From a virus, in the IMG/VR virus record IMGVR_UViG_3300027712_000108, positions 1 to 28,870 of that record: a DNA stretch of 28,870 nucleotides. One strand, given 5' to 3'. The notes under the pieces were generated by a model. The model was given only the letters and a program-made list of their open reading frames with translations, made no database searches and was not told where the DNA came from. Shown here in pieces: positions 7,557-25,900 of the stretch (position 1 is the stretch's first letter; each line of letters opens with the position of its first letter). Position numbers and translations under genes: made by a program.

Positions 7557-7583
7557 CTTGTGCTCCTTAGTGTCTATGTGTGT

Positions 7584-7612: not shown

Positions 7613-7795
7613 CCGCTTGAGCAAGTCAGTGATCTCAGGCTTGTTCATCATGTCGTCAAATGCCTGCTTGGGATCGTACCATTCGCCGGTCTTGCGATCC
7701 ATAATCATCTGAGCTTGCTGAGTCATCTCTGCGGCTGTGATTGGCTTTGCAGTATACTCTTTGCCGCCTTCGATGTGTGTGCTCTTGTCCATCAT
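7598..7795 (-). CDS. 65-aa hypothetical protein
   Basis: A soluble, helical protein with 'MIMDRKTGEWYDPKQAFDDMM'-like charge pattern. AAGGAGC lies just before the ATG at 7795. Its last codons run through the -35 box of the next promoter (…LeuThrIleArg stop), so the 3' end doubles as regulatory DNA. No known family. Confidence 0.7.
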   Translation of the reverse strand: MMDKSTHIEGGKEYTAKPITAAEMTQQAQMIMDRKTGEWYDPKQAFDDMMNKPEITDLLKRLTIR

Positions 7796-7819
7796 CTGCT
7801 CCTTAGTGTCTATGTGTGT

Positions 7820-7848
7820 ATTATAGCAAGGTTCTTGAGTCTTGTCAA
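7820..7848 (-). promoter_or_regulatory. sigma70-type promoter for the 65-aa gene
   Basis: -35 TTGACA (7848-7843), 17-bp spacer, -10 TATAAT (7825-7820). Confidence 0.87.
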
Positions 7849-7865
7849 CCTGTTTCTGGCAAAGA

Positions 7866-8074
7866 TTTAACCGCTGTTCTAGCCGTGATCTTGTTGGGGA
7901 TAGGGTCTAGCATTGCTCTAGATCCGATCGTTCACTGTAGACGGTTTAAAGCGCCGCTAGATCAAGATGAACCCCACGTGCTTCACAGCAGGCGGGGTTC
8001 TGGGGGTTTGCCCGGCACACTACCTCCGGGACTTGTGTCCAGTACGCGACTGCTGGACGGTTGGAGCGTTCTTT
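7866..8074 (-). ncRNA. structured non-coding region: long 3' UTR or small RNA
   Basis: About 210 bases with no ORF between the HTH gene and the next promoter. Complementary pairs in order: 8037-8042/8053-8058 (GTCCAG/CTGGAC), 8011-8015/8026-8030 (CCCGG/CCGGG), 7969-7975/7994-8000 (GAACCCC/GGGGTTC, with an inner TGCT/AGCA), 7904-7910/7918-7924 (GGTCTAG/CTAGATC-C), enclosed by 7866-7873/7942-7950 (TTTAACCG/CGGTTTAAA, one bulge). No dedicated promoter is visible, so it would be part of or processed from the HTH transcript. Strand is inferred from transcription direction. Confidence 0.45.
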
Positions 8075-8320
8075 TTAACCAAAGATTGCAGCACGGCTAC
8101 CAGTCACATCACGTGAGCTGATTGTGTAGGCTGTGCGGCCTTCGGTGTTGACAGTACGGTTCACCTTCAAACCGGCACTGCGCAATTCTGTCATTCGAGC
8201 ACGAATGTTCTTGATACCGTAAGTGGCTTTGGCCTGGCGTGCGCTGATTGCACGGCCTGTTCCACGTAGGTGCTGTTCCAAGAACTCATTCTGTGTTGTC
8301 TTCAATTTTACGAAACTCAT
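8075..8320 (-). CDS. helix-turn-helix DNA-binding protein
   Basis: An 81-aa protein. Residues 24-50 (AISARQAKATYGIKNIRARM and the helix after it) form a helix-turn-helix followed by a beta-wing-like 'VNRTVNTEGRTAYTI', like the small phage HTH proteins with 'A..RFGI..L.ARI.DLR'. It could regulate the cassette promoters, but no operator is proven. Promoter at 8360-8388 and AAGGA ribosome site. Followed by an unusually long structured 3' region. Confidence 0.78.
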   Translation of the reverse strand: MSFVKLKTTQNEFLEQHLRGTGRAISARQAKATYGIKNIRARMTELRSAGLKVNRTVNTEGRTAYTISSRDVTGSRAAIFG

Positions 8321-8359
8321 GTTGTTTTCCTTATGTTATACTGCAAGCAGTTAATAACT

Positions 8360-8388
8360 AGTTTACAGTTCTAACATCAGGAAGTCAA
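8360..8388 (-). promoter_or_regulatory. sigma70-type promoter for the HTH gene
   Basis: -35 TTGACT (8388-8383), 17-bp spacer, -10 TAAACT (8365-8360). Weaker -10 than the other cassette promoters and a longer, different leader, suggesting separate control. Confidence 0.6.
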
Positions 8389-8603
8389 CCTTTAATTTGC
8401 CCAAACTCTTTATTGGTGTAATAGTCAATCAGTCTACGTTGGATCATGGTCAGGAGGTCACCACTGGCATCATCTGAAATAAACCTTACAGGGCAATGTC
8501 CCCAGGTACGATCACGTTGAAAGTCAGCAAACCATTGTCTATGGTCCTGATTGGCAGCGTCAAACACTGTCCATTGACGACCAATGAAGTTTAATCGGCT
8601 CAT
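8385..8603 (-). CDS. 72-aa hypothetical protein
   Basis: Aromatic-rich N-terminal half (RQWTVFDAANQDHRQWFADF) and a helical C-terminal half. The ATG overlaps the stop of 8600-8743 by four bases (ATGA), so it is coupled to it. Third gene of the unit started at 9297-9325. No recognised family. Confidence 0.65.
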   Translation of the reverse strand: MSRLNFIGRQWTVFDAANQDHRQWFADFQRDRTWGHCPVRFISDDASGDLLTMIQRRLIDYYTNKEFGQIKG

Positions 8604-8743
8604 TCTGCTGGTCTAGTTGGTGCAGGTACACTTTCCAAGGCTTCTAGGATAGCCTGGGCGTTTTCTTCCGGCACGTTGACTTCACTCACTGTGATACCGT
8701 GTGTAGCCAATTGTTCTTTGATCTGTTCTACTATGGTTGCCAT
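8600..8743 (-). CDS. 47-aa hypothetical protein
   Basis: MATIVEQIKEQLATHGITVS… , a short acidic helical protein ending APTRPAE. AAGGAAA lies 6 bases before the ATG. Its stop overlaps the start of 8385-8603. Middle gene of a three-gene unit; function unknown. Confidence 0.65.
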   Translation of the reverse strand: MATIVEQIKEQLATHGITVSEVNVPEENAQAILEALESVPAPTRPAE

Positions 8744-8809
8744 TGTTGTTTCCTTTTTTTATATAGTTTTAGAGGACTTATTGGCACTGCCTCTGAATAC
8801 CCCGCTGGA

Positions 8810-9241
8810 TTAGAACGGTGCGTCGTCCAGTGCAGCCAGTTCGGCTTCAATCTGAGCCTTGCTCTTTGTGCTTACCGGAGCCTTCTTGGCCTTGATGGTA
8901 TCAAGAGTGATAGCAGCCTTGGTCTTGGCAGGAGGAGCCTTCTTGGGCTTCTTGGCTTCTTTCTTGGGAGCGTCACGATTGCCTGCTTTGGGCTGTGCGG
9001 TGCGCTTTTCAACTTCTGCTTCCAATGCGGCACGCACTTCTTTGTTGCCATTGTCGAAATCAATCTTCAACAGGAACGCTACAGCGTCTGCTTTGGTCAT
9101 TGCTTCTTTCAACTCAATCATGTCAATGTCGGAACTGCCGGTTTTGGCAAGGACCTTGACACGCATCAGGTCGTTAGCGAAACGAGCCTTCATAACACCA
9201 TCTTTACGGCTTACACCTGCAAACTTAAACATCTTATCCAT
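8810..9241 (-). CDS. 143-aa phage protein with Lys/Ala/Pro-rich linker and SSB-like acidic tip
   Basis: The N-terminal ~75 residues (MDKMFKFAGVSRKDGVMKAR … MTKADAVAFLLKIDFDNGN) form a conserved phage domain of unknown role. Residues ~85-125 are a basic Lys/Pro/Ala linker. The C-terminus is ALDDAPF, which resembles the acidic Pro-Phe tip by which bacterial single-strand DNA-binding proteins recruit partners. A DNA-associated role is inferred from linker plus tip. ATG 9241 is preferred over 9247 because it has better spacing from AAGGA. Confidence 0.75.
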   Translation of the reverse strand: MDKMFKFAGVSRKDGVMKARFANDLMRVKVLAKTGSSDIDMIELKEAMTKADAVAFLLKIDFDNGNKEVRAALEAEVEKRTAQPKAGNRDAPKKEAKKPKKAPPAKTKAAITLDTIKAKKAPVSTKSKAQIEAELAALDDAPF

Positions 9242-9296
9242 TTTCATTTCCTTCTGTGTGTTGTGTATGACTTGCACTATTGCTCATCATGTGTTA

Positions 9297-9325
9297 ATTA
9301 TACAAGCCTTTTGGATACCTGTCAA
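9297..9325 (-). promoter_or_regulatory. sigma70-type promoter for the 143-aa gene unit
   Basis: -35 TTGACA (9325-9320), 17-bp spacer, -10 TATAAT (9302-9297). The TGA stop of the HTH-like gene to the right is inside the -35 box. Confidence 0.86.
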
Positions 9326-9501
9326 CCAGAATAAGGACTGTAGATCTCGTCGTCATGTTGTGAATCTGCAACACTCCAACCCTGGAGAACTCTCAATACT
9401 TCTTCGTAAGGCACGCTCAGTTGGACTGCAATGCTTTTGGCACTGAAGCCCTCAATGTACAATTGTTCAATGTCGTACATGAAATCTTTAATCTTGCTCA
9501 T
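9322..9501 (-). CDS. 59-aa helix-turn-helix-like protein
   Basis: Residues 12-40 (EQLYIEGFSAKSIAVQLSVP and the helix after it) read like a sigma-region-4/resolvase-type helix-turn-helix that recognises DNA. An acidic tail ending SPYSG follows; phage relatives I recall share both parts. It overlaps the end of 9488-9709 by 14 bases and has GAGGAGG-like ribosome site GGAGG. Last gene of a three-gene unit. DNA binding is inferred. Confidence 0.7.
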   Translation of the reverse strand: MSKIKDFMYDIEQLYIEGFSAKSIAVQLSVPYEEVLRVLQGWSVADSQHDDEIYSPYSG

Positions 9502-9709
9502 CGTAAGCCTCCTCGCCCAATTGTTCTACTGTTTCAACGACCACACCCAAGTCCAGGATGCGGGCTGTTTGATCTTCGTTGCTGACGCCTTGAAAGGCTG
9601 TACGGAATGACTGGAACTCGCTAAGGAAGTCCAGGACGTGCTCACGTTCCCAATCATCGGGAACCTCAAGCTCTTGCATCAGCTCTGTGCGTACTACTAC
9701 CTTTTTCAT
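9488..9709 (-). CDS. 73-aa acidic hypothetical protein
   Basis: MKKVVVRTELMQELEVPDDW… , soluble and strongly acidic, ending EEAYDEQD. The ATG overlaps the stop of 9706-10185 (ATGA), so a longer upstream frame is rejected. Function unknown. Confidence 0.72.
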   Translation of the reverse strand: MKKVVVRTELMQELEVPDDWEREHVLDFLSEFQSFRTAFQGVSNEDQTARILDLGVVVETVEQLGEEAYDEQD

Positions 9710-10185
9710 ACAGTTTCCTTCAAAAGTAGAGTTTCCAATTCTGTGTAATCGCCACCGTCTGTGGCCACATACCAAACAGCCTGGTCGTCAACTTGACGCA
9801 GAATGTATTCGTATTCTTCGTACTGGTGGTTTTCTCGGTAGTCAGCAAAGTCCTTGAACTTCTCAACAGACAAGCTCTCGCCGCGATCCCGTGTGTAGAA
9901 TGTAGTGTAGCCTGCTTCATGTGCGGCATCGTATGCTGCTTGAACTACTGCCTTCTTCACCGGGTCAGTCTCATTGTAAGCAGGGCTGAAGGGATGCTTC
10001 CGGCCAATGCTCTTGCCCAGCGAACTGATGCCGCCCATGTTGATCAAATCGCGCAGTAGGAACGGATCCGAATAATGTTCAAACAGGATCTTGCCATTGT
10101 GATCCAAGTAGCCATCCCAATGGCAGTAAACCTGCTCTACTGTGCCGTCTGCGTACTCAAGTGCGATAGTGCTGCGTGTTCCCAT
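9706..10185 (-). CDS. 159-aa conserved phage protein (MGTRSTIALEY family), unknown function
   Basis: Starts MGTRSTIALEYADGTVEQVY and contains 'CHWDGYLDHNGKIL', 'HYSDPF' and 'RDRGESL', a set of motifs seen in very many phage genomes without a known biochemical role. The conserved His, Trp and Asp residues could form a binding site. First gene of a three-gene unit behind GGAGC. Confidence 0.85.
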   Translation of the reverse strand: MGTRSTIALEYADGTVEQVYCHWDGYLDHNGKILFEHYSDPFLLRDLINMGGISSLGKSIGRKHPFSPAYNETDPVKKAVVQAAYDAAHEAGYTTFYTRDRGESLSVEKFKDFADYRENHQYEEYEYILRQVDDQAVWYVATDGGDYTELETLLLKETV

Positions 10186-10213
10186 TTCTTGCTCCTAGTG
10201 TGTGTAAGTGTTA

Positions 10214-10242
10214 ATTATAACAGGGTTTTATCAGTCTGTCAA
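10214..10242 (-). promoter_or_regulatory. sigma70-type promoter for the 159-aa gene unit
   Basis: -35 TTGACA (10242-10237), 17-bp spacer, -10 TATAAT (10219-10214). Confidence 0.87.
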
Positions 10243-10365
10243 CCTCTTTGTTTAGTAAGTGCTCTTATCTGCTTGCCTTCACTCCTATACATCTGCCTGA
10301 GCATTCATAGATCTCGACCGACTTCAGTCTAGAGGCACTTACTAAACAAATTTGTTGCTGTCTAT
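10243..10365 (-). ncRNA. candidate small RNA closed by a 16-bp terminal stem
   Basis: A consensus promoter at 10372-10400 points into about 120 bases with no credible ORF. GCACTTACTAAACAAA (10335-10350) and TTTGTTTAGTAAGTGC (10247-10262) are perfect complements and would close a roughly 70-base internal domain; two or three further pairs extend it past a bulged G. A 12-base palindrome AACAAATTTGTT overlaps one arm. The next gene's promoter starts directly after the stem. Small RNA is inferred; a hairpin-bearing leader of 9706-10185 is the alternative. Confidence 0.55.
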
Positions 10366-10392
10366 GTTTGTATTATAACGCACATAGACAGC
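10357..10392. promoter_or_regulatory. 11-bp inverted repeat flanking a -10 box (operator candidate)
   Basis: GCTGTCTATGT (10357-10367) and ACATAGACAGC (10382-10392) are perfect complements separated by 14 bases that contain the TATAAT box. The arms lie in the promoter spacer and at the transcription start, the expected geometry for a dimeric repressor. Confidence 0.5.
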
Positions 10393-10400
10393 CTTGTCAA
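10372..10400 (-). promoter_or_regulatory. sigma70-type promoter for the candidate small RNA
   Basis: -35 TTGACA (10400-10395), 17-bp spacer, -10 TATAAT (10377-10372). No AAGGAG leader follows, unlike its neighbours. Confidence 0.85.
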
Positions 10401-10409
10401 CCGGTATCC

Positions 10410-10550
10410 TTACCGCTTGCCGGGTTTCTGTTTGGCTTCTTGAGCAGCGATCCGGCCCGAGTAGGCCTTGCCGGCACTGTGGTTCAGGCCAGTAGCAGTG
10501 AAAGTGATCACACCGCCGGTGCTGGATGGGATTGGTTTAGGTAGGGTCAT
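10410..10550 (-). CDS. 46-aa basic protein, unknown function
   Basis: MTLPKPIPSSTGGVITFTAT… then a Lys/Arg/Gln-rich tail AAQEAKQKPGKR. The ATG follows AAGGA. The nearest consensus promoter is about 150 bases upstream, leaving a long leader with a hairpin and a tiny ORF. The basic tail suggests nucleic-acid contact; otherwise unknown. Confidence 0.65.
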   Translation of the reverse strand: MTLPKPIPSSTGGVITFTATGLNHSAGKAYSGRIAAQEAKQKPGKR

Positions 10551-10700
10551 ATCGTGTCCTTAGTGTGTATCAATTAACAAATGCGTGTTCGACGTTTTCT
10601 AGTTTGTTTGCGGGCCGCAAAACTGTCATTAACACCCGGCAACTCTAAGTTCACACCTTAGAGTGCAACAAAAAGATTCGCAGTCTTCTTGTTCATGTGT
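10551..10700 (-). promoter_or_regulatory. long 5' leader with 12-codon ORF and hairpin
   Basis: From the promoter at 10703-10731 the transcript meets ATG within a few bases (10697), reads 12 codons (MNKKTANLFVAL) and stops inside a perfect 7-bp hairpin CTCTAAG/CTTAGAG with a 7-base loop. About 100 further bases precede the gene. The arrangement resembles a leader-peptide or riboswitch-like control region; nothing identifies a ligand. Confidence 0.4.
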
Positions 10701-10702
10701 GT

Positions 10703-10731
10703 ATTATAGCAGGGATCTTAGATGTCGTCAA
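10703..10731 (-). promoter_or_regulatory. sigma70-type promoter upstream of the 46-aa gene
   Basis: -35 TTGACG (10731-10726), 17-bp spacer, -10 TATAAT (10708-10703). Confidence 0.82.
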
Positions 10732-10755
10732 CCAAAGACCCTGCAGACATCTGGG

Positions 10756-11325
10756 TTATTCAGCTTGTTCGTCCTCGTCGTCTTGGTTCTCTTCTTCCCA
10801 CTGGGCCATGTTCTCACTGATGCCAAAGTAGTCATCCAACTCTGCACCAATCAAGTCACGTACCGTGGACGAAGTGTAACCGCCGTACTCATAGCAGTCA
10901 TCGTCACCGTCCGCATACTTGCCCACAAAGGCCATGCCAGGCTCGTAGTAGAATGCTACTACCTCAAAGCCCATGGCCTCCAAACGACCATAGGCTGCAA
11001 CGGGTGGTGCCCATGCTGTATCGAAACTCAGCTGCACGGTGTTGGCATCTACTCGCTCAATGCTGTCTACACTGAAATCCCATTTGGTGCCCCACTCGGC
11101 CACATTGTGATCATACCAAGTAGAGTAACCATACTTCTCACGGTTAGCCGCTTGTTGAGCCTCTAAAGCCTCCTGCTCAGGTACGAAGCCACTCACAGTG
11201 TCAATCAGTTCTTGTGGGCAAGGGATGAACTCTTGCAGCAGGCCCTCCTGGCCTTTGATCACACGATCAATCATTGCGGGATCGCTATGGGTCAGCGTCA
11301 AACCATTAGAGCACCAATTGGGCAT
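10756..11325 (-). CDS. Api92/YubB-like protein (DUF1281 type, ferredoxin-like domain)
   Basis: A 189-aa protein starting MPNWCSNGLTLTHSDP, the hallmark of the Api92/DUF1281 family found in phages and plasmids; the fold is predicted ferredoxin-like. 'WGTKWD' and 'FDTAWAPPVAAY' are further family landmarks. The C-terminus is very acidic. The biochemical role is unknown. Second gene of a unit with 11345-11584; AAGGAGA ribosome site. Confidence 0.85.
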   Translation of the reverse strand: MPNWCSNGLTLTHSDPAMIDRVIKGQEGLLQEFIPCPQELIDTVSGFVPEQEALEAQQAANREKYGYSTWYDHNVAEWGTKWDFSVDSIERVDANTVQLSFDTAWAPPVAAYGRLEAMGFEVVAFYYEPGMAFVGKYADGDDDCYEYGGYTSSTVRDLIGAELDDYFGISENMAQWEEENQDDEDEQAE

Positions 11326-11344
11326 AATCTTCTCCTTAAGTTAA

Positions 11345-11584
11345 TTAACCTAGCACAACCACGCGGCGTGTGCCTTCGTAGTCGCCGTCTTCTTCATACA
11401 TGTCGTTCTCATCCATCAGCTTGTCCATGCTGTGGTAGGCACTGTGCTTGACCAGGCCTTCTTCTACAGAGTCAACTGTAGGGGCAACCTGTGTGCGCCA
11501 GTGATCACCGTAGCAGTAGCTGAAATGCACATCAGCTTCCTGGTCCATGTAGCCCAACTGCTCGATAAGATCTTTAACTTTCAT
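11345..11584 (-). CDS. 79-aa conserved phage protein, unknown function
   Basis: MKVKDLIEQLGYMDQEADVH followed by 'FSYCYGDHWRTQVAP' and a C-terminal strand RRVVVLG. This start and the 'YGD-x-WRT-x-VAP' motif recur in phage accessory proteins. First gene of the unit with the Api92-like gene. Confidence 0.78.
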   Translation of the reverse strand: MKVKDLIEQLGYMDQEADVHFSYCYGDHWRTQVAPTVDSVEEGLVKHSAYHSMDKLMDENDMYEEDGDYEGTRRVVVLG

Positions 11585-11610
11585 ACCAGCTCCTTAGTGT
11601 GTAAGCATGT

Positions 11611-11639
11611 ATTATAACAAGGTTCTGCTGTTCTGTCAA
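11611..11639 (-). promoter_or_regulatory. sigma70-type promoter for 79-aa/Api92-like unit
   Basis: -35 TTGACA (11639-11634), 17-bp spacer, -10 TATAAT (11616-11611). Confidence 0.88.
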
Positions 11640-11640
11640 C

Positions 11641-11877
11641 CTAGTAGTCCATAGAGACCTGGTCCGCTGTAGGGTCATACCGGACAAAGACCTTACAAGA
11701 GTCAGTGCCGCCTTCCACAGGAAAGACAGCCATGTAGCAGAACTCGTTGGCATTGGTCAGGCCTAGGAACTTGGCACTGGTGAACGTGTCCTTCTTGTAG
11801 CCGGCCTGCTGGATACCCATTGTGAGCATGGCCGCTGGCATATTGGTCAGGAGGCGGAGTTTGTCTGCTGTGATCAT
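11641..11877 (-). CDS. 78-aa conserved phage protein, unknown function
   Basis: 'KLRLLTNMPAAMLT … AGYKKDTFTSAKFLGLTNANEF' (landmarks) then a beta-rich end 'CYMAVFPVEGGTDSCKVFVRYD'. A family signature I have seen in phages without function. Second gene after 11880-12092; its ribosome site AAGGA overlaps that gene's stop. Confidence 0.76.
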   Translation of the reverse strand: MITADKLRLLTNMPAAMLTMGIQQAGYKKDTFTSAKFLGLTNANEFCYMAVFPVEGGTDSCKVFVRYDPTADQVSMDY

Positions 11878-11879
11878 GT

Positions 11880-12092
11880 TCAGTCCTTAAAGTAAACAAC
11901 AAGATTGCGAGTACCTGTGTTAAGCCAAGCATTGCCGGGCTCTACTATGCGATCAGGATGATTCATTACTTTATTAAACAGGATTTTGACACTGCGAGCG
12001 CTCTGCTCGGGCGTGGTGTATCGGCCTCTGCAGCCGCACATACATCCGGGCCGGCCACTATAAACTTTTTCTACGTTTTCCAGTGTAAACAT
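11880..12092 (-). CDS. 70-aa protein with CxCxC motif, unknown function
   Basis: Residues 10-24 'VYSGRPGCMCGCRGRY' hold Cys17, Cys19 and Cys21 flanked by Gly and Arg, suggesting a metal or nucleotide-binding loop. 'SVKILFNKVMNHPD' and a terminal strand LVVYF follow. Conserved in phages; role unknown. AAGGAGC precedes the ATG. Confidence 0.77.
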   Translation of the reverse strand: MFTLENVEKVYSGRPGCMCGCRGRYTTPEQSARSVKILFNKVMNHPDRIVEPGNAWLNTGTRNLVVYFKD

Positions 12093-12119
12093 CGTCTGCT
12101 CCTTAGTGTGTATGTGCTA

Positions 12120-12148
12120 ATTATACAATGGTTTTACCATGTTGTCAA
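12120..12148 (-). promoter_or_regulatory. sigma70-type promoter for the CxCxC protein unit
   Basis: -35 TTGACA (12148-12143), 17-bp spacer, -10 TATAAT (12125-12120). Closely similar to 15608-15636. Confidence 0.87.
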
Positions 12149-12150
12149 CC

Positions 12151-12177
12151 TGAGACCCTACAGGGCTTAGGGTCTTT
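12151..12177. terminator. GACCCTA-type hairpin between units
   Basis: AGACCCTA and TAGGGTCT pair around about 8 bases between the stop of 12183-12344 and the next promoter. Same motif recurs at other unit boundaries. Confidence 0.5.
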
Positions 12178-12182
12178 ACATA

Positions 12183-12344
12183 TCAATCAACGTAATAGTC
12201 AACTACTTGTGACAAATGTGCTACTGCAACATCTACCTCTTCAAAAACTTCTAGATCTGCTAGCAGCTGGCCGTCGCACTGCGCCTCCAGTAGTAATTCC
12301 TCAACCTGCATCAGTAGTGCTAAAATTTGCTGTTTTACTTGCAT
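12183..12344 (-). CDS. 53-aa acidic helical protein
   Basis: MQVKQQILALLMQVEELLLE … VDYYVD: leucine/valine heptad-like spacing over most of the length suggests a coiled coil. The ATG follows AAGGAGC with consensus promoter. Function unknown. Confidence 0.68.
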   Translation of the reverse strand: MQVKQQILALLMQVEELLLEAQCDGQLLADLEVFEEVDVAVAHLSQVVDYYVD

Positions 12345-12372
12345 AAGTGCTCCTTAGTGTGTGTAAGCATGT

Positions 12373-12401
12373 ATTATAACAACTTCTTAGCCCTGTGTCA
12401 A
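12373..12401 (-). promoter_or_regulatory. sigma70-type promoter for the 53-aa gene
   Basis: -35 TTGACA (12401-12396), 17-bp spacer, -10 TATAAT (12378-12373). The -35 box encodes Leu-Thr in the gene to the right. Confidence 0.87.
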
Positions 12402-12611
12402 CTTGTACAGCAAAGCCCCTGCTCCTGTCAGGGTCATTACCGCATTGGTTGCAATCAGTGCGGGCTCTCTCCAACGTATGCTGACCACGAGCCATATGGC
12501 ACCCCCTGCTAGCAGCAGCAAGGGCCCTGCAGGCTGATAACCCAAGTTGTTTACTGCTGTGCCTATGATTAATATTATAGTAGCACTCCACTTTAAAACG
12601 TTATCAAGCAT
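12387..12611 (-). CDS. small membrane protein with three hydrophobic segments
   Basis: A 74-aa protein with hydrophobic segments at about 8-24, 29-44 and 52-68 and the landmarks 'GTAVNNLGYQPAGPLLLLAG' and 'WREPALIATNAVMT', typical of a phage membrane-protein family of unknown role. The ATG at 12611 overlaps the stop of 12604-12909 by 8 bases, so a longer frame is rejected. Confidence 0.75.
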   Translation of the reverse strand: MLDNVLKWSATIILIIGTAVNNLGYQPAGPLLLLAGGAIWLVVSIRWREPALIATNAVMTLTGAGALLYKLTQG

Positions 12612-12909
12612 GAGATTTGCAAACAAATGCATTAGCACGTATCAAATTATTATCTTCAATATATTTTAATACTGCATAAAAGTGCTCACGCGGCAGTGTA
12701 TCTTGTAGCATAATACTGTCATGCAATTGTGCTGCATCTAGCGTGTCATTAAACACATGCAAAGCAGCGACATTATGCGCAATGTCATCTACATACATTT
12801 TAAACATGCTGAGATCTTTCTCATCTGCATCAAAATACGCTACAGTTTTAATAAGTGGCAACATAATTTTATTAATAGCCACTGCATGAGATTTTGTTAC
12901 TCGCGCCAT
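12604..12909 (-). CDS. 101-aa hypothetical protein
   Basis: MARVTKSHAVAINKIMLPLI… , soluble and helical, with AT-richer codons (many AAT, TTA, ATT) than neighbouring cassettes, hinting at a separate origin. First gene of a unit with the downstream membrane protein. No recognised family. Confidence 0.72.
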   Translation of the reverse strand: MARVTKSHAVAINKIMLPLIKTVAYFDADEKDLSMFKMYVDDIAHNVAALHVFNDTLDAAQLHDSIMLQDTLPREHFYAVLKYIEDNNLIRANAFVCKSHA

Positions 12910-12939
12910 TTTAGAGCTCCTTAGTGTGTGTAAGCATGT

Positions 12940-12968
12940 ATTATAACGCAAAAGGGCCCTGCTGTCAA
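12940..12968 (-). promoter_or_regulatory. sigma70-type promoter for the 101-aa gene unit
   Basis: -35 TTGACA (12968-12963), 17-bp spacer, -10 TATAAT (12945-12940). Confidence 0.87.
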
Positions 12969-12969
12969 G

Positions 12970-12996
12970 CAAAGACCCTATGCTGTGTAGGGTCTT
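12970..12996. terminator. perfect GACCCTA-type hairpin
   Basis: AAAGACCCTA and TAGGGTCTTT are perfect 10-base complements around a 7-base loop, between the stop of 12997-13251 and the next promoter. Confidence 0.6.
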
Positions 12997-13251
12997 TTAA
13001 ACTAGCACGATGCGATCTGTACGCATCACTTCACGCACGATTGCAAGTGTGCGCTGAACAGCCACTTGACGTTTGGCAGACGAGTCTAGCATACTGGCAA
13101 CATCGCCGGAAGCATACACTGCATTCTGCGCAGTGACAACAATGTCGCCGTGCTTGTTGCGACGACTGGTGTCAAAAGTAGCTAGAATGCGAACAGTGTT
13201 GAGACGCTTGTTTTCAAAAACTTTAGCATAAGCAGTGCAGTCAGTAAACAT
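12997..13251 (-). CDS. 84-aa hypothetical protein
   Basis: MFTDCTAYAKVFENKRLNTV followed by 'RILATFDTSRRNKHGDIVV' and a helical end. A basic, beta-then-alpha layout; no family recognised. AAGGAGC leader and own promoter. Confidence 0.72.
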   Translation of the reverse strand: MFTDCTAYAKVFENKRLNTVRILATFDTSRRNKHGDIVVTAQNAVYASGDVASMLDSSAKRQVAVQRTLAIVREVMRTDRIVLV

Positions 13252-13279
13252 ATCAGCTCCTTAGTGTGTGTAAGCATGT

Positions 13280-13308
13280 ATTATAACGCACTTCCCACAC
13301 TGTGTCAA
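13280..13308 (-). promoter_or_regulatory. sigma70-type promoter for the 84-aa gene
   Basis: -35 TTGACA (13308-13303), 17-bp spacer, -10 TATAAT (13285-13280). Confidence 0.87.
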
Positions 13309-13332
13309 CCTATACCCCTACAGGCAGTAGGG

Positions 13333-13530
13333 TTATATCTTGGGAGCGTATTTGACCACTAGAGCATTGACTTCATCGGAATGACCCAGATCCCGGAGGC
13401 GTTTGACTTCTGCCTGTATGGCTCGAGCCTCAGTCTGACCACGTGTCCAGGCCGTGTAGTCATCACTGCGGTCATAGGTCCAATCGTGGTGGGCCAACAA
13501 GGTCTTCAGTGTAGCCAATTCTGGATTCAT
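13333..13530 (-). CDS. 65-aa helical hypothetical protein
   Basis: 'LAHHDWTYDRSDDYTAWTRG' then an Arg/Glu/Leu helix. 'HDWTY-x-SDD' recalls small phage proteins that pair with proteins like the upstream gene. Second gene of the unit at 13827-13855, separated from the first by one base; ribosome site GGAG within the upstream gene's end. Confidence 0.7.
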   Translation of the reverse strand: MNPELATLKTLLAHHDWTYDRSDDYTAWTRGQTEARAIQAEVKRLRDLGHSDEVNALVVKYAPKI

Positions 13531-13531
13531 G

Positions 13532-13798
13532 TTACTCTCCAGTGTAGAATTCGTAGATCTTAACAGTGGGATCCAACTGCACCAACTGCTGAGCCACCCG
13601 GGTCAATTCCAAGTAGCGATGGCGTGTTTGAGTAGCAGACAGTTCACCATCACAGCTGAGGTTCTCGGGGCTGAGTTCACAGTCGATGAGGTCTGCCAGG
13701 CGCTGTCGACCTGCCCGAGTCTGGATCTCAAACTGTTCGCCCCGGAACATGGCGTTCCACTTGTTCTTGCGATCAATGTAGGCTTGCAATGCTTTCAT
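13532..13798 (-). CDS. 88-aa hypothetical protein
   Basis: MKALQAYIDRKNKWNAMFRG … DPTVKIYEFYTGE: mostly helical and charged. The ATG follows AAGGAGC. It overlaps nothing but abuts the next gene. Unknown function. Confidence 0.72.
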   Translation of the reverse strand: MKALQAYIDRKNKWNAMFRGEQFEIQTRAGRQRLADLIDCELSPENLSCDGELSATQTRHRYLELTRVAQQLVQLDPTVKIYEFYTGE

Positions 13799-13826
13799 AA
13801 GTGCTCCTTAGTGTGTGTAAGTGTGT

Positions 13827-13855
13827 ATTATAGCACCTTTTCAGGTGCTTGTCAA
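13827..13855 (-). promoter_or_regulatory. sigma70-type promoter for the 88-aa/65-aa unit
   Basis: -35 TTGACA (13855-13850), 17-bp spacer containing the inverted repeat GCACCT/AGGTGC, -10 TATAAT (13832-13827). Near-identical to 14078-14106. Confidence 0.88.
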
Positions 13856-13863
13856 CCGTAGGG

Positions 13864-14049
13864 TTATTTGTAGATCTCTTTGAGCAAACTAGCCTCAAGA
13901 TGCTTCCAAGTTTTGTGAAGCCGATCTGTTTTGGGCACACACCGCCAGTTGAACGAGCCCGGGTAGGTCGGCTTGCGCATCTTTTTGTCCTGCGCCTTAA
14001 AGTCTTGCTGGGCCTTGCGGCACTGTTCGATCAGTTGTTCTACAGTCAT
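13864..14049 (-). CDS. 61-aa basic hypothetical protein
   Basis: MTVEQLIEQCRKAQQDFKAQ then a Lys/Arg/Trp-rich half (KKMRKPTYPGSFNWRCVPK…). The charge suggests nucleic-acid or membrane contact; no family recognised. Own promoter and AAGGAGC. Confidence 0.7.
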   Translation of the reverse strand: MTVEQLIEQCRKAQQDFKAQDKKMRKPTYPGSFNWRCVPKTDRLHKTWKHLEASLLKEIYK

Positions 14050-14077
14050 CTCTGCTCCTTAGTGTGTGTAAGTGTGT

Positions 14078-14106
14078 ATTATAGCACCTTTTCAGGTGCC
14101 TGTCAA
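14078..14106 (-). promoter_or_regulatory. sigma70-type promoter for the 61-aa basic protein
   Basis: -35 TTGACA (14106-14101), 17-bp spacer with GCACCT/AGGTGC, -10 TATAAT (14083-14078). Twin of 13827-13855. Confidence 0.88.
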
Positions 14107-14108
14107 GT

Positions 14109-14393
14109 TCACATGCTGTGGAATCGTTCCATGCTAGGATCGTTCACAGTGCCCCGGTCTTCCCTGCGGATCTCAACTTCTGCACCAGTCAGGCAGTTCT
14201 TTACAGTGACCAGCTGACGACCATTAAAGGTGGCCACCTGCCGGATAAATGCCTTCTGCTGGCGCTTGGGCATGAGCATCAGCATCTCCTGTGCCATGCT
14301 GTTCAGGTAGCCTGCTGTGAAAGCAGCACCCTGATCTGCGTACATCTGATCCAACTCTGCTTTGAGTGCTCTCTGATTCTCTGTAGTAAACAT
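14109..14393 (-). CDS. 94-aa hypothetical protein
   Basis: MFTTENQRALKAELDQMYAD… helical N-terminal half, 'QEMLMLMPKRQQKAFIRQV' in the middle and a beta-rich 'LVTVKNCLTGAEVEIRRED' end. No family recognised. ATG chosen behind AAGGAGC; the longer frame crosses the promoter. Confidence 0.72.
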   Translation of the reverse strand: MFTTENQRALKAELDQMYADQGAAFTAGYLNSMAQEMLMLMPKRQQKAFIRQVATFNGRQLVTVKNCLTGAEVEIRREDRGTVNDPSMERFHSM

Positions 14394-14421
14394 GTCTGCT
14401 CCTTGGTGTGTGTAAGCCGTT

Positions 14422-14450
14422 ATTATAACTGGGATCCAGCGCCCTGTCAA
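14422..14450 (-). promoter_or_regulatory. sigma70-type promoter for the 94-aa gene
   Basis: -35 TTGACA (14450-14445), 17-bp spacer, -10 TATAAT (14427-14422). Confidence 0.87.
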
Positions 14451-14466
14451 CCAGAAACCCTACAGT

Positions 14467-14640
14467 CTAGTAGGTTTCTACCACATAGTAGAAGTGTTCT
14501 TCAGGATACAGGGCACGGAACTCTTCACTCTTGACGAACTCTCGCTGTTCCTTGGCATTGAAGAACACCTTGGTGAACACTCGATTCAGCTTGCCGCGTG
14601 GACTGACCGTTAAGTAAACCGATTTTGCTTTGCCTGCCAT
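14467..14640 (-). CDS. 57-aa hypothetical protein
   Basis: MAGKAKSVYLTVSPRGKLNR… ends 'YPEEHFYYVVETY'. A compact basic-then-aromatic protein with a GGAGC ribosome site and its own promoter. Its stop overlaps a hairpin (AGAAACC/GGTTTCT, 14453-14478) that precedes the next promoter. Unknown function. Confidence 0.68.
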   Translation of the reverse strand: MAGKAKSVYLTVSPRGKLNRVFTKVFFNAKEQREFVKSEEFRALYPEEHFYYVVETY

Positions 14641-14669
14641 ATCATGCGCTCCTGGTGTGTTGAGTGTCG

Positions 14670-14698
14670 ATTATACGACTAAACAGTCTCTCTGTCAA
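14670..14698 (-). promoter_or_regulatory. sigma70-type promoter for the 57-aa gene
   Basis: -35 TTGACA (14698-14693), 17-bp spacer, -10 TATAAT (14675-14670). Lies within the last codons of the gene to the right. Confidence 0.86.
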
Positions 14699-15053
14699 CC
14701 CGATCGCTCAACTCAGCGAACTTCTGCTTCAACGCATAGACCCGGGGCTTGGCTTCATTCAAAGCCTCCCAAATGCAGTCCTCGGCAACCCCGTCAGTAA
14801 GGATGTCTCGGGCGTCACTGTATAAGCATCCGCCCAAGTAGGACGAACCAAGTTCGAGTCCTTCAACCATGACGCGGACACGGAGCATAAACCAATCGTA
14901 GGTGCCGTTGTCAATCTTGCGGCAGATCTCGTCAATGTCGTGGCATGAGTCGTCGAAACTGTCCCGGGGGTGCATGTCTTCATAGGTCTTGTCCACAATT
15001 ACAGTAAAGCCATCACGCTCGTAACGAGCCAGTTCGTCGTAATAAGTCTGCAT
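14679..15053 (-). CDS. 124-aa acidic conserved phage protein
   Basis: 'MHPRDSFDDSCHDIDEICRK', 'YDWFMLRVRVMVEGLELGS' and 'DARDILTDGVAEDCI' are landmarks of a phage family with no assigned function. The Asp/Glu/Cys/His-rich first half could bind metal. The C-terminal residues VDRETV are encoded by the next promoter. Confidence 0.78.
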   Translation of the reverse strand: MQTYYDELARYERDGFTVIVDKTYEDMHPRDSFDDSCHDIDEICRKIDNGTYDWFMLRVRVMVEGLELGSSYLGGCLYSDARDILTDGVAEDCIWEALNEAKPRVYALKQKFAELSDRVDRETV

Positions 15054-15079
15054 GTCAGTTCCTTTGTTGCTAAGTCGTA

Positions 15080-15108
15080 ATTATAACTGAGTTCTACCTG
15101 ATTGTCAA
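15080..15108 (-). promoter_or_regulatory. sigma70-type promoter for the 124-aa acidic protein
   Basis: -35 TTGACA (15108-15103), 17-bp spacer, -10 TATAAT (15085-15080). Confidence 0.87.
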
Positions 15109-15251
15109 CCTGAAACCGCACACCCTGGCTCGCCCAGCGGCGCCACTGTTTGAGCCAGCATACCTTCAGCCACCATGCAGCTATCTCCGGCACTCTAAGA
15201 TTGCTCTTAGCGTGATTCGACCGGCGGTATGTGTGTGCGGTCTGCGGTTGA
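15109..15251 (-). ncRNA. candidate structured small RNA with GNRA hairpin
   Basis: The promoter at 15258-15286 reads into about 140 bases that fold neatly. ACCGCACAC (15115-15123) and GTGTGCGGT (15233-15241) form a perfect terminal stem. On the transcript CTAAGA-GCAA-TCTTAG (15210-15195) is a 6-bp hairpin with a GNRA tetraloop. CTGGCTC/GAGCCAG (15125-15131, 15152-15158) closes a third arm with an inner CAGTG/CGCTG pair. A 23-codon ORF (15105-15176, GGAG before ATG) is the competing reading. Covariation across related phages would decide. Confidence 0.55.
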
Positions 15252-15257
15252 GCCTGT

Positions 15258-15286
15258 ATTATAGCAGGGTTCTTACACCCTGTCAA
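15258..15286 (-). promoter_or_regulatory. sigma70-type promoter for the structured RNA
   Basis: -35 TTGACA (15286-15281), 17-bp spacer, -10 TATAAT (15263-15258). The spacer matches that at 4721-4749 at all but one base; the usual AAGGAGC leader is absent. Confidence 0.86.
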
Positions 15287-15288
15287 CC

Positions 15289-15579
15289 TTATGCGAACTC
15301 TGCATCCATCACAGGCGTCAACATGTTGGCAGGCACTTTCCACAAGCCCTGCGCAGTGTTCACTGTGACATACTTGATGGCAATCTTGTGCACGGTTCCC
15401 GAAACATTCCGGCCCAATCGAGTGCTGTCAAATGATACACGATCGCCAACCCGCAGAGCCCGCTTGTTCGACTCGCCCAGGCGTGCTCTAGCGAACTTGA
15501 CAGCGTCGATGATGCTGGTCAACTGATCGTTGGTGAAGTTACCTGCAAGGATCTCTGCGTTAACTGTTTGAATCGTCAT
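15289..15579 (-). CDS. 96-aa protein with SH3-like C-terminal domain
   Basis: A helical N-terminal half (FTNDQLTSIIDAVKFARARL), then 'LRVGDRVSFDSTRLGRNVSG' and 'TVHKIAIKYVTVNT', which looks like a KOW/SH3-like barrel, ending 'KVPANMLTPV'. Phage relatives with this layout are of unknown function; RNA or protein binding is plausible. AGGAG before the ATG. Confidence 0.75.
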   Translation of the reverse strand: MTIQTVNAEILAGNFTNDQLTSIIDAVKFARARLGESNKRALRVGDRVSFDSTRLGRNVSGTVHKIAIKYVTVNTAQGLWKVPANMLTPVMDAEFA

Positions 15580-15607
15580 ATCAACTCCTTAGTGTGTGTA
15601 AGCGTTA

Positions 15608-15636
15608 ATTATACAATGGTTTTACCTGATTGTCAA
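15608..15636 (-). promoter_or_regulatory. sigma70-type promoter for the SH3-like protein
   Basis: -35 TTGACA (15636-15631), 17-bp spacer, -10 TATAAT (15613-15608). Confidence 0.87.
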
Positions 15637-15649
15637 CCAAAGACCCTTT

Positions 15650-15853
15650 TCAGACCAGGGTCAAGTTCTTTGCAAAGATCTGCTGGGTCAATTCAGGTGC
15701 CTCGTACCGAGTGTCCCATCCCCAACCCCGAGCCGTGAGTTCAGGTTGCCGAGCATAATTCTCGTAGGCCCGACGAGCCTGAGCCGGAGTCTTGAACTCC
15801 CTCTCGACTACACCGCCGTCTTGGTATTCAATATAGAAGAATGCTCCGCTCAT
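15650..15853 (-). CDS. 67-aa hypothetical protein
   Basis: MSGAFFYIEYQDGGVVEREF then 'TPAQARRAYENYARQPELTA', a small alpha/beta layout. Its ribosome site AAGGAGC overlaps the stop codon of 15863-16021, so it is the second gene of that unit. A GACCC/GGGTC hairpin follows at 15640-15662, overlapping the 3' end. Confidence 0.7.
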   Translation of the reverse strand: MSGAFFYIEYQDGGVVEREFKTPAQARRAYENYARQPELTARGWGWDTRYEAPELTQQIFAKNLTLV

Positions 15854-15862
15854 GTGTGCTCC

Positions 15863-16021
15863 TTAGTATGCGATAGGGTAAATGAGTTCTGTCTGCCCAA
15901 TGTAGAACACTCGTCCCGTGCTCAGCATACGAGCAGTTCTGGTGCTCTGCTTGACATAGTCATTGCCGTTCAAGTGAAACATGCGTCCAATTCGAAAGTC
16001 TTTGAATAGCCACGATCCCAT
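15863..16021 (-). CDS. 52-aa hypothetical protein
   Basis: MGSWLFKDFRIGRMFHLNGN … VFYIGQTELIYPIAY: basic, beta-rich; conserved in my memory of phage small proteins but without function. AAGGAG precedes the ATG by 6 bases; first gene of a two-gene unit. Confidence 0.7.
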   Translation of the reverse strand: MGSWLFKDFRIGRMFHLNGNDYVKQSTRTARMLSTGRVFYIGQTELIYPIAY

Positions 16022-16047
16022 AGCGTCTCCTTTGTTGCAATGACTGT

Positions 16048-16076
16048 ATTATAACACGGAATCTTCACACTGTCAA
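16048..16076 (-). promoter_or_regulatory. sigma70-type promoter for the 52-aa/67-aa unit
   Basis: -35 TTGACA (16076-16071), 17-bp spacer, -10 TATAAT (16053-16048). The -35 box encodes Leu-Thr in the gene to the right. Confidence 0.87.
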
Positions 16077-16412
16077 GTCACCCCGAATGTCCGTGTTCAG
16101 TGCAGGGTTAATCAGTCTACGGATCTCAACTTCGCGCTTATGAGCAGCCGCTTTGCCACGTATGACTTCATGCACCAAGATCTCAATGTCATCTTTACTG
16201 TCAAGACCACGCAGGGCTTCGCAAAGTAACCAGGCCTTGTTCTCACTGTGAGCACGGTACCAGTGTTTATTAGCACGTACACGAACCGATTTCAATACAG
16301 TAGTCTCTGTCTTAGCAGTGACACCAATGTAGTTCAAACCGTTGACTACCAGTTCGTATATGATGTGATTGCGATCTTGTCGCCGCTTACGGGGTGTGTT
16401 CTTTGTGTCCAT
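16065..16412 (-). CDS. GIY-YIG nuclease-domain protein
   Basis: A 115-aa protein. Residues 18-30 (IYELVVNGLNYIG) match the GIY-YIG signature with Leu-Asn before Tyr-Ile-Gly. Arg43/Arg45 and the helix 'WLLCEALRGL' follow. Glu94 in 'AHKREVEIRRLINPALNTD' fits the catalytic Glu before the family's L-x-P-x-x-N end. Members cut DNA as homing or repair nucleases; here no extra DNA-binding domain is fused, so it is a minimal version. The ATG at 16412 coincides with the predicted transcription start, suggesting a leaderless mRNA. First gene left of the DnaA-box array. Confidence 0.75.
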   Translation of the reverse strand: MDTKNTPRKRRQDRNHIIYELVVNGLNYIGVTAKTETTVLKSVRVRANKHWYRAHSENKAWLLCEALRGLDSKDDIEILVHEVIRGKAAAHKREVEIRRLINPALNTDIRGDLTV

Positions 16413-16418
16413 GTGTGT

Positions 16419-16447
16419 ATTATATACAGGTTTTACCACTTTGTCAA
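16419..16447 (-). promoter_or_regulatory. sigma70-type promoter of the GIY-YIG gene (leaderless)
   Basis: -35 TTGACA (16447-16442), 17-bp spacer, -10 TATAAT (16424-16419). Only six bases separate the -10 box from ATG; no ribosome site fits between them. Confidence 0.82.
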
Positions 16448-16526: not shown

Positions 16527-16688
16527 TGTGGATAACTTGTGGATTGACTGTGGATAAGTCCGGCCTGTGGATAAAGGTGTGGATATCATGTGGATATCAT
16601 GTGTATAACTCTTTGACTGTGGATATCATGTGGATATCATGTGTATAACTCTTTGACTGTGGATAACTTGTGGATAACTTGTTGACAA
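16527..16688. other. DnaA-box array, candidate replication origin or DnaA decoy
   Basis: Thirteen 9-base sites TGTGGATAA or close variants, all in one orientation, start at 16527, 16538, 16549, 16566, 16578, 16589, 16600, 16618, 16629, 16640, 16658, 16669 and 16680. Seven (16527, 16549, 16566, 16600, 16640, 16658, 16669) fit the bacterial DnaA consensus TTATNCACA on the complementary strand exactly; the rest differ by one to three bases. Spacing is 11 bp inside triplets, about one helical turn, and a perfect 40-bp unit repeats twice (16578-16617, 16618-16657). Gene direction switches across this region. Origin use is inferred. Confidence 0.75.
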
Positions 16689-16716
16689 GTCCGATCTGTG
16701 TAGTGAAAGGTTAGAT

Positions 16717-16752
16717 TTACTTTGGTATTCACCCTAAACTTACTTTGGTATT
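16717..16752. repeat. direct repeat TTACTTTGGTATT x2
   Basis: Two identical 13-base copies (16717-16729 and 16740-16752) with a 23-base period, between the DnaA-box array and the tRNA. Confidence 0.75.
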
Positions 16753-16762: not shown

Positions 16763-16840
<78 letters not shown>

Positions 16841-16893: not shown

Positions 16894-17196
16894 TTGGGAT
16901 ACTTGATACCCAGGATGAAAAAAGGGTCAAAAATGTGTGAAAAAACAACAGAACAGGTGGTTTTTCACCGGGTTTTCACCGGGTTTTTGGGTCCGATCGG
17001 CAGTTTCTTGGGTGGTTTTAGAGTAAAAATATTTTGAGGCACTGTGGTCGGTGGAGGCTATCGTAAAATGGTGCCACGCTGATTCACACGATTCTCATGA
17101 TTTCTTCACTGTATTCTCAGGGTTCTACCACCTTTGATCACCGTGCCTCTACTGCTGTCTTGTACACAGTAACCTCGACGGACAGCCCGCCCGTGC

Positions 17197-17322
17197 AGCG
17201 GGGTTTTGCCCCAGGGTGCTCTAGCGGGGTATTTGACCAGGCCGTTGCAGCGGGGTATTGCACCAGTGTGTGTGTAGAGTCTATGCACTGTGTTTTCTGT
17301 AATGGCAGTACAGCGGGGTATT
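17197..17322. repeat. AGCGGGGTATT repeats, 26-bp period
   Basis: AGCGGGGTATT occurs at 17223, 17249 and 17312, with AGCGGGGTTTT at 17197; the first three are exactly 26 bp apart. A 14-base match (CAGCGGGGTATTCA) recurs on the minus strand at 8807-8794. Confidence 0.75.
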
Positions 17323-22903: not shown

Positions 22904-25900
22904 ATGGCCGTAACTACTAGCACCACTATAACATCAGTAGGATACAATGATATCCAAAGCAAGATCAATACAGTATTGAGTACCAACTATGGGTATACAG
23001 GTGTTTATAGTGTTCCTGTTACAACTGGTACTACTATCACTTCTGCACAGTGGTTTAACTTGTATGTTGATATCAATAGATGTATTGTGCATCAAACAGG
23101 AGTAAAGTTAAGTCCCACATTGATAGGCACATACAATTATTCATCAGACCAATATGAGAATGTTGTACTCACGGCTGCAACTGTTAACACACTTGATGAC
23201 TATGCAACCCAGGCCTTGGCCAATAGTACTCAAGTGGCCGCCAATCAACTGGCTGTAAATTCTGACAACGGTACTAGTACAGTTACTGCAACCTGGGGAA
23301 ATAATCGTCGTCACCGGGTACGTCACACTTGGTCAACTGCTGATTATGCCCGCTACTTTTTCAACCTAGGTGGTAATATTAGAGTTAGACTAAGTTATAC
23401 ACCAGGTAACTATTCTGGGCAAGATGCAATATGGCAGGATCTTATTGATGCTATAAATGTAAAGTTATCCACACAAGGTTACGGTCCCACTGACTTCATT
23501 ACTGGATTGCCAGTAACTCCAATTACAGAATCGTCGGGTGCTAATAGTATTACCGTAAATTTTTCTAAGATCAGTGCAACACAGACACTAACAGAAGTTG
23601 TATTATTAGATCCTGATGCTATACCATCTGATATAGACATAACCAGTACCGTAGAATATCATTACTCTATAAAATTAGACGTTGCATTGCCCGCTGGCGG
23701 CGGCGTCCCTACACCTGCGTTACCACAAACTGAAAAAGTCTTGGGTCTAGACAATACCACAGGCAGTGGACTTACGGTGACCAAAATTCTAAGTGTTACG
23801 CCAACGCCTATTACTATCACTATGCCCAGCGGAACGACTTCAACTTCACTGGTGACTATGACCAATTCGGGCAACACCGCCATGGGTATTGGTAGAATTA
23901 CAGCCAACTTACCAGCAGGGTCTGGACTAAGTTCTAAATTCTATGAAGAAAGTTGGGACACCACCAAACCGTTAACTCTAGAACCAAATCAATCTGTAAC
24001 AATGAAGATGTCATATTATAATTCAATAAGACAAGGTACATTTAATACTATCCTAGTCATAGTGGCCGATAATGACGTGGGCTTTGTTACAACACCTGTA
24101 AACATTACAGTCACTGAACCTGTATTTGATTTTACCTTCTTACCTGCTGCCATCAGTAAAACTGCCACAAATGGGTCTTTGGTGTCACAAGTTTTTAGTT
24201 ATGTGGCCAATACCACATATGATACAAATTATGCTGATCCTGTATTGACTCAGGATTATAACTATTTTACCATGACGGTTAATCGTGCAGCCCGGCAGGT
24301 TACACTTACTTTTAATCCACTGGTTAGAAAGATCAATGGAACTTATTCTGCCAGTGTATCACTAACACTAGTTGGTAATAGAACCATTACTAGAAGTATC
24401 ACATTTACAGTGACTAGAAATCTTAATGACCAATCTAGAAACCTAGGTACATGGATCAGTGCCAAGTCTGCTATCAATTCAGTAATAGGCATGAGTTACG
24501 ATATAATCGAAGGTAAACGATATATCACAATGGGTGTAGGGGTACAAGGAACACCTAGTGCAACTATATTAAGTGACGGTCTTACGCCTGTTACCGTGGA
24601 TAATTTAGGTATCACAGCTGACGATAAGTACAGCAACGGTACAGTATTGTATAAAGTTCCTACTCAATCAGCCTACTGTCAATTCTTAAATGATTATGGA
24701 GTATGGGTACGCCCCAATACAGATTATCCAACTAATATAACGCTGACAAGATATTATAAATTCACAGCACCTACTACAGGTCGCTTTTCTTGGGAATTTG
24801 CAGCAGACAATGTGGGATCATTTAATATTGATGGTGGGACGCAACTAAATGCTACCAGTAGTCTTTCTACAAGCGAAGTTGGATTGGTAACATTAGCAGC
24901 AGGCCCCCATACCATTAACCTTCAGATTCTAAATTCTAGTGGTCCAGGTAGCATTGCCATTGTAATAAAGGCACCCGATGGCACACAGGTATGGAGCACT
25001 CGCACACCAGTGCGTACTGCTGATCCCTATCCCAATTGGAGCGAAGTGTATCGAATTCCGTTACCTGGAGGCCGAGCTGTTACATATCAAAGTAATCTAT
25101 ATTGTATTAAAGATACCGCTGCGGCCAGACCAGATGATGGCAATGAAGCTGTACAATTTACTCGTTGGGGAGACTTTTTTGGCACACCTAACGGCAATAC
25201 CAGCAAATCATTATTTACTGTAGTAGATGATGGTATTGGTAATCTTGCTATAACCTTAAATGGCAAGACTGGTACTGCAACCAATACCAACAACTATGCT
25301 ACCACTAGTAATCTTCCTTATTCTTCTTACTATTATTCTACTAGAGGAACACGATATACACAATTAGAATCTACACCTATTAATGCAAATGGTGTTGTAG
25401 ATAGCACTGGCATATATACACATCAATTTACTGGATTTGATCTCAATGGTGTAGTTACTACTATTATTGCCGAATATCCAAAACCTGATCAGATACCAGT
25501 GTCTTATGTACCAACTACTGGATATACAGCTGGTCCGCGAGGCGGTGGCAACCATGCAGTGCAAGGTGGATGGACTATAAGTCTTGTCAGTTTCAATGAC
25601 GAAGGAATGATAACAACTTTTACCAATGATGTCACTGGTGAGATAGCAGAATCTTTCACACCAAGTACAGTTGCATCCGAAGCGGCTGCGGCTGCTGCTG
25701 CTAGTGAAGGTGCTGCTGCACAAGCCGCAGCCGCCGCTCAGGCAATTTCAAATGCAGTCATGGGGCAGGATCCAGCTTCATTGGGTGCTGCCGCTGCTGC
25801 CGCTGCTGCCGAAGGTACTACCACTACTGGTAATACTGCGGATAGCGGTACTACTACTGGTAATACTACGGGTGGTGGTTCTACTACTGGTGGTAACGTT

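Follow-up and report, generated by a model that had tools for sequence, protein, structure and literature searches.

DnaA is the near-universal initiator of bacterial replication, and its control by phages is usually discussed as a matter of proteins. In E. coli, it is an established model that chromosomal boxes titrate DnaA (PMC12371093); helical spacing matters in DnaA assembly, and oriC has been described as a mix of strong and weak DnaA sites (PMC4285127). For lytic phages, the open-access literature (the scope of our survey) presents DnaA boxes only as a feature of the T5 injection-stop region and as one software-predicted origin, that of a Pseudomonas phage (PMC11512268), and yielded no account of one-way phased DnaA arrays across phage families. 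A paper that cites Davison (2015, 2020) and Heusterspreute (1987) describes repeats and DnaA boxes as abundant in the proposed T5 injection-stop signal (PMC13250531).

The window analyzed here (the whole stretch of DNA, 28.9 kb) is an IMG/VR fragment, itself without a hallmark gene. Its array of DnaA boxes is noncoding and occupies part of a 657-bp gap, bounded by a minus-strand block (to 16439) and a plus-strand block (from 17097), i.e. at the strand switch named in the earlier note. The following features were distinguished:

16527–16688, plus strand: DnaA-box array, TGTGNATAA; 11 boxes with at most one mismatch, 13 boxes with at most two
16578–16617, plus strand: first copy of a 40-bp triplet unit (boxes at 16578, 16589 and 16600)
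16618–16657, plus strand: second copy of the triplet unit, identical to the first (boxes at 16618, 16629 and 16640)
16419–16447, minus strand: sigma-70 promoter of the first early gene, perfect consensus TTGACA-17-TATAAT, 80 bp from the array
16065–16439, minus strand: opening gene of the early block on this strand, shared with 24 related viral loci, with no assigned function
3000–16447, minus strand: promoter-dense early-type block, about 30 consensus TTGAC-17-TATAAT promoters, about one per small ORF
16712–16752, plus strand: AT-rich direct repeat (T/C)TTACTTTGGTATT, two copies 23 bp apart, within the window found in this gap only
16763–16840, minus strand: tRNA-Met gene with its own promoter (16893–16865)
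16959–16988, plus strand: period-11 repeat GGTTTT(T)CACCG
17197–17322, plus strand: iteron-like AGCGGGGTWTT, four copies (17197, 17223, 17249 and 17312)

The array is composed of thirteen TGTGNATAA-like 9-mers on the plus strand (16527, 16538, 16549, 16566, 16578, 16589, 16600, 16618, 16629, 16640, 16658, 16669 and 16680), spaced by 11, 11, 17, 12, 11, 11, 18, 11, 11, 18, 11 and 11 bp. Seven of them are exact (16527, 16549, 16566, 16600, 16640, 16658 and 16669), four have one mismatch (TGTGGATAT) and two (16538 and 16680) have two. These counts bear out the 12–13 boxes claimed by the earlier note, whose description of a single orientation, 11-bp spacing within triplets, a perfect 40-bp duplication and seven exact boxes was likewise confirmed in the window. 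In 500 dinucleotide-preserving shuffles of the window, no 160-bp stretch held more than two exact boxes, as against the seven found here on a single strand. The same array is carried by a near-identical contig (IMGVR_UViG_3300009684_000144), which does not represent an independent phage; the array is therefore not a one-off assembly error.

The array resembles bacterial oriC clusters in its 9-mer and in its 11–12 bp helical spacing, and differs from them in its single orientation, in the absence of dnaA/dnaN neighbors and, apparently, in that of an adjacent AT-rich element. The phased triplet TGTGGATA-N3-TGTGGATA-N3-TGTGNATA was used as a query against bacterial and viral collections, yielding at least 119 bacterial and at least 120 viral loci, and neighboring genes were sought within the fetched DNA, up to 8 kb from each triplet locus. 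Among the matches listed, a DnaA match was found near 58 of 119 bacterial loci, and any origin-region gene near 64, so in bacteria the triplet pattern marks DnaA clusters. Among the viral matches listed, DnaA was found near none of the 120 loci and DnaN near two, and the viral copies are therefore not host origins; host contamination or a captured oriC was rejected on the same counts. Viral arrays tend to lie outside coding sequence: ORFs overlapped 35 of 106 of them, as against 80% of random positions (among the matches listed). Helical phase is kept in both phage and bacterial arrays (Rayleigh p below 1e-25; among the matches listed, the phage loci being not all independent), while a gap of 18–19 bp occurs in 19 phage cases and is absent from the bacterial set; gaps of 17–19 bp, a class to which those of the window array belong, are likewise missing from the bacterial set (again among the matches listed). 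These comparisons support the view that the window array consists of DnaA boxes in an oriC-grade arrangement and has a genuine DnaA-site architecture. In the viral array loci (L002–L121), terminase genes are often the immediate neighbors in IMG/VR contigs (among the matches listed).

We favor, tentatively and with slightly less than even confidence, the reading that the array is a high-affinity sink (a DNA decoy) for host DnaA, located in the control region of the early genes, and rank it above both a DnaA-assisted phage origin and control of early transcription. Host DnaA would bind the array cooperatively as a filament, and accumulating phage copies would drain free DnaA (with 11–13 sites per genome, 100 copies would provide more than 1,000 sites). 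Drained of DnaA, the host would stop initiating chromosome replication, and DnaA-repressed host genes, e.g. those of nucleotide supply, would be relieved. Lying upstream of the early promoters, with gene blocks diverging on either side, the filament would not get in the way of early transcription. A sink is favored because the boxes are mostly of the consensus, high-affinity type, unlike the strong/weak mix at oriC. On the other hand, T4-, T5- and T7-type phages degrade host DNA, and stopping oriC may therefore bring little gain.

One parallel for such a function is E. coli datA, the DnaA titration and inactivation locus, where a DnaA-box cluster lies outside an origin, adjoined by tRNA gene(s), and is a proposed sink. 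The window array, also next to a tRNA gene, is unlike datA in being denser, phased, phage-borne and apparently without a conserved IHF site. IHF-like matches at the array have one mismatch each and mostly overlap boxes, those in the spacers not being kept in the relative L294, and an IHF-assisted copy of datA was rejected for these reasons. A known RNA element was also rejected, since Rfam matches in the neighborhood were to tRNA only, as was a promoter inside the array (TTGACT-16-TATCAT, 16613), since promoter-like sites are no commoner there than expected by chance.

The array might instead be a phage origin recruiting host DnaA, where array-bound DnaA would open adjacent DNA or aid a phage iteron-binding initiator and the first rounds of replication would start. 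We regard this as unlikely, albeit a serious candidate. The spacing and grade of the boxes match those of clusters beside dnaA in bacterial genomes. Iteron-type plasmid origins (P1 oriR, pSC101, RK2) combine DnaA boxes with direct repeats and an AT-rich stretch, and the window may be similar: AT-rich direct repeats and the iteron-like AGCGGGGTWTT repeats cluster in the gap, which fits an origin and speaks against a sink. It is unlike these plasmid origins in having no recognized Rep-type initiator and many more boxes, all in one direction. The (T/C)TTACTTTGGTATT repeats, about 30 bp from the array, are also found in relatives both with and without arrays, and AGCGGGGTWTT clusters in the same region in those relatives that have copies. 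Cumulative GC skew, to which the earlier note had pointed as a check, is indeed lowest near 16.0–16.5 kb of the window, at the strand switch, in agreement with an origin; skew tracks gene strand in this clade, however, so the minimum is confounded by gene direction and was rejected as proof of an origin.

Several observations argue against an origin and for a sink. No clear AT-rich unwinding element or DnaA-trio is seen at the array: the 50-bp bins flanking it have an AT content of 0.48 (5') and 0.62 (3'), as compared with 0.54 overall, and no DnaA-trio-like run was found between 16200 and 17300. The 50-bp flanks of bacterial arrays exceed their own locus in AT by about 6%, and those of phage arrays do not (among the matches listed, with phage loci not all independent). 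The one-way orientation also sets the array apart from bacterial arrays in general: extra exact boxes beyond the seed triplet numbered 178 on the same strand and 29 on the opposite strand in phages, versus 258 and 350 in bacteria, among the matches listed and with the same dependence between phage loci. Both the lack of extra AT and the single direction are reasons for favoring a sink.

The gene content of related phages bears on the same question. A 280-kb relative with shared early genes, which holds a similar promoter-dense block of 20 kb, encodes a T4 gp23-type capsid protein and a T4-type terminase; these homologs uphold the earlier note's assignment to a T4-like phage and, through the shared genes, support placing the window phage, a large freshwater phage, in a clade of T4-like jumbo phages. 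Replication genes in the relatives include one for a DnaB-type helicase; the 280-kb contig also has one for a family B polymerase (PolB). That relatives encode their own helicase and polymerase counts against an origin dependent on host DnaA. Neither the window nor any of 14 related contigs, among them the 280-kb one, showed a Bac_DnaA_C domain (all of them are fragments), and a phage-encoded DnaA using its own boxes was rejected on this basis; the absence of a DnaA gene alongside the helicase and PolB of the relatives is a further reason for favoring a sink. A search for the T4 gp59 helicase loader gave no match, but the control genomes were likewise without a match, so this negative carries no weight.

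The scan of the clade covered about 200 related loci totaling 2.45 Mb, some of which overlap or are nearly identical; a cluster was defined as three or more exact boxes sharing a strand. Clusters were found in seven distinct phages: the window phage, L294, L301, L390, L443 (with the near-identical L451), L445 and L049. The earlier note had proposed a search of relatives for the same array position, and homologous or analogous arrays were thus located there in six other phages of the clade; the outcome that the note had named as refuting, an array missing from all close relatives, did not occur. All seven clusters lie at the head of the early block, 80–213 bp upstream of the first early promoter, and no same-strand cluster away from early-block heads was detected in the 2.45 Mb scanned; L049 has three further boxes in mixed orientation (5126–5160). 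The density of exact boxes is 0.51/kb in the 900 bp upstream of early-block heads and 0.07/kb elsewhere, an approximately sevenfold difference. In the window and in L294 the array is directed away from the early genes, in L301, L390 and L049 along them, L124 (three boxes) is also reversed relative to the window, and L443 and L445 have boxes in both directions. The number of boxes per relative ranges from 0 to 13 (L138 has two), and roughly 85% of early-block heads carry no cluster.

The constancy of position across the clade agrees with an origin, but the reversal in L301, L049, L390 and L124 and the lack of an array in most relatives with the same flanking genes do not. We favor a sink because the array is optional, is found in either orientation and with 0–13 boxes, yet occurs only at the early-block head. 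The same constancy also speaks against a pure sink, which could sit anywhere, and hints at a role in cis; the fixed position may, however, simply be that of the largest noncoding gap. A 19-mer, CACCCTCCACGTCCACCCC, is identical in L294 (1888), L301 (630) and L049 (11802, minus strand), where it lies between the array and the early block, and is absent from the window.

A role in cis could be exerted on transcription, a DnaA filament upstream of the first early promoter activating, repressing or insulating the early block according to the host DnaA level. DnaA is a known transcription factor, the rather steady distance between array and first early promoter (see above) fits such a role, the 3 kb next to the clusters of the seven phages contain 4–9 promoters each, and the array of phage BF23 lies near pre-early promoters. 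We nevertheless consider such control improbable: distance and orientation vary, relatives without arrays keep the same promoter layout, and every early gene already owns a perfect consensus promoter. We read the minus-strand block, unusually dense in promoters, as the early region; its promoters (window 3.0–16.5 kb) are perfect or near-perfect matches to TTGACA-17-TATAAT, every spacer being 17 bp. In some of them the ATG follows TATAAT by just 1–6 nt (window 3000–16447), which suggests leaderless starts. In L301, successive early promoters (e.g. 749–780, 1127–1160 and 1703–1735) contain ACCGGT-N4-ACCGGT palindromes within the −35/−10 spacer, with more copies upstream, and this palindrome looks like a phage operator.

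The array could also have arisen by neutral tandem expansion of an ancestral box pair and have no present function. The perfect 40-bp duplication, the highly variable box number and the absence of boxes from most relatives would be expected in this case, but the confinement to one genomic position and the independent recurrence in unrelated phages would not, and the comparison with L294 also speaks against it. The neighboring protein of L294 is about 85% identical to that of the window, and its array is clearly homologous. Of its end boxes, those aligning one-to-one with the window (units 1, 3, 4 and the last strong box) show no difference, whereas the spacers between aligned boxes match at about 3 of 14 positions (hand count). 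Neutral expansion is accordingly quite improbable. Identical boxes with diverged spacers are a reason for favoring a sink, and the window/L294 array therefore seems to be maintained by selection on the boxes, with arrays apparently gained and lost across the clade.

Beyond the clade, DNA resembling an array consensus was detected in 165 of 50,697 phage records (E up to 1), among them Demerecviridae (T5-like), Berlinvirus and other T7-like podoviruses, Lactococcus phages and gokushoviruses. Arrays were rare among plasmids, at 9 of 72,556 records (E up to 0.01, a stricter limit than that of the phage search). Klebsiella phage FBKp16 carries eight boxes, spaced by 22, 33, 21, 22, 20, 22 and 11 bp. 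The arrays of Berlinvirus phages P483, A7 and nasanit are, like that of the window, one-way and phased at 11–12 bp, but these are unrelated podoviruses and their arrays lie in the terminal repeat or at the left early end: in P483 and nasanit between the terminase gene and the first early gene, and in A7 at both genome ends, i.e. in the terminal repeat and hence twice per genome. The known origins of T7-like phages lie away from such arrays, which weakens the case for an origin. In BF23 and Kenya-K36 the boxes are located within the annotated terminal repeat, beside the pre-early genes. The placement of T5- and T7-like arrays in a terminal repeat or leading early region, doubled in A7, is a further reason for favoring a sink.

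The T5-like pre-early/injection-stop region has, like the window, DnaA boxes in a noncoding gap, there next to pre-early promoters, but its clusters comprise just 3–4 boxes, lie in a terminal repeat, belong to an unrelated phage group and have been proposed to pause DNA entry. A pause or roadblock to DNA entry, as proposed for that region, could be transferred to the window array, given that T5-like arrays lie in the first-transferred terminal repeat and that DnaA boxes occur in the proposed T5 stop signal (PMC13250531). Two-step injection is, however, specific to T5-like phages, with nothing to tie it to the T4-like group, from which the window is a 28.9-kb piece; we consider this reading very improbable.

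The presence of similar rows in some relatives and in several unrelated phages suggests repeated evolution to catch host DnaA. One-way, helically phased DnaA-box arrays by the earliest genes of unrelated lytic phages (T4-like jumbo phages, T5-like and T7-like phages and possibly microviruses) could be independently evolved DNA decoys that disarm or exploit the host initiator, a generalization we put forward as possible but rather doubtful. If the array captures DnaA, it would be a simple decoy strategy made of DNA, and if such decoys are general across phages, they would form a previously unrecognized host-takeover element of DNA rather than protein. The idea is directly testable because model coliphages (BF23/T5-like phages and Berlinviruses) carry such arrays. 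If the array is an origin instead, a T4-type phage would be borrowing the host initiator; either answer would explain a recurrent noncoding element left unmarked by genome annotation. In Gokushovirus KT264804 (L150, about 1040–1170), a DnaA-trio-like run, TAGTAGTAGTAG, lies just ahead of the DnaA-box cluster, and this combination resembles a bacterial unwinding module.

At the head of the early block, in the slot that the array takes in the window, about eleven relatives of the window phage carry a conserved noncoding element of about 170–230 nt (e.g. L125:4696–4867, plus strand); neither the window nor any relative with an array has it. The carriers of this element are:

L123, L125–L127, L129–L131, L135, L136, L348 and, weakly, L297

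RNAalifold predicted 45 pairs from eight sequences of the element, 30 of them with two-sided changes in at least one sequence, and several copies end in a terminator-like hairpin. The element had no match in Rfam and, judging from this folding model, is likely a structured RNA.

On the other side of the strand switch, the plus strand of the window encodes a 1363-aa protein (22904–26995) with Hint/intein-type domains near its C-terminus, followed by genes for a cell-wall hydrolase and an Fe-S biosynthesis-type protein.
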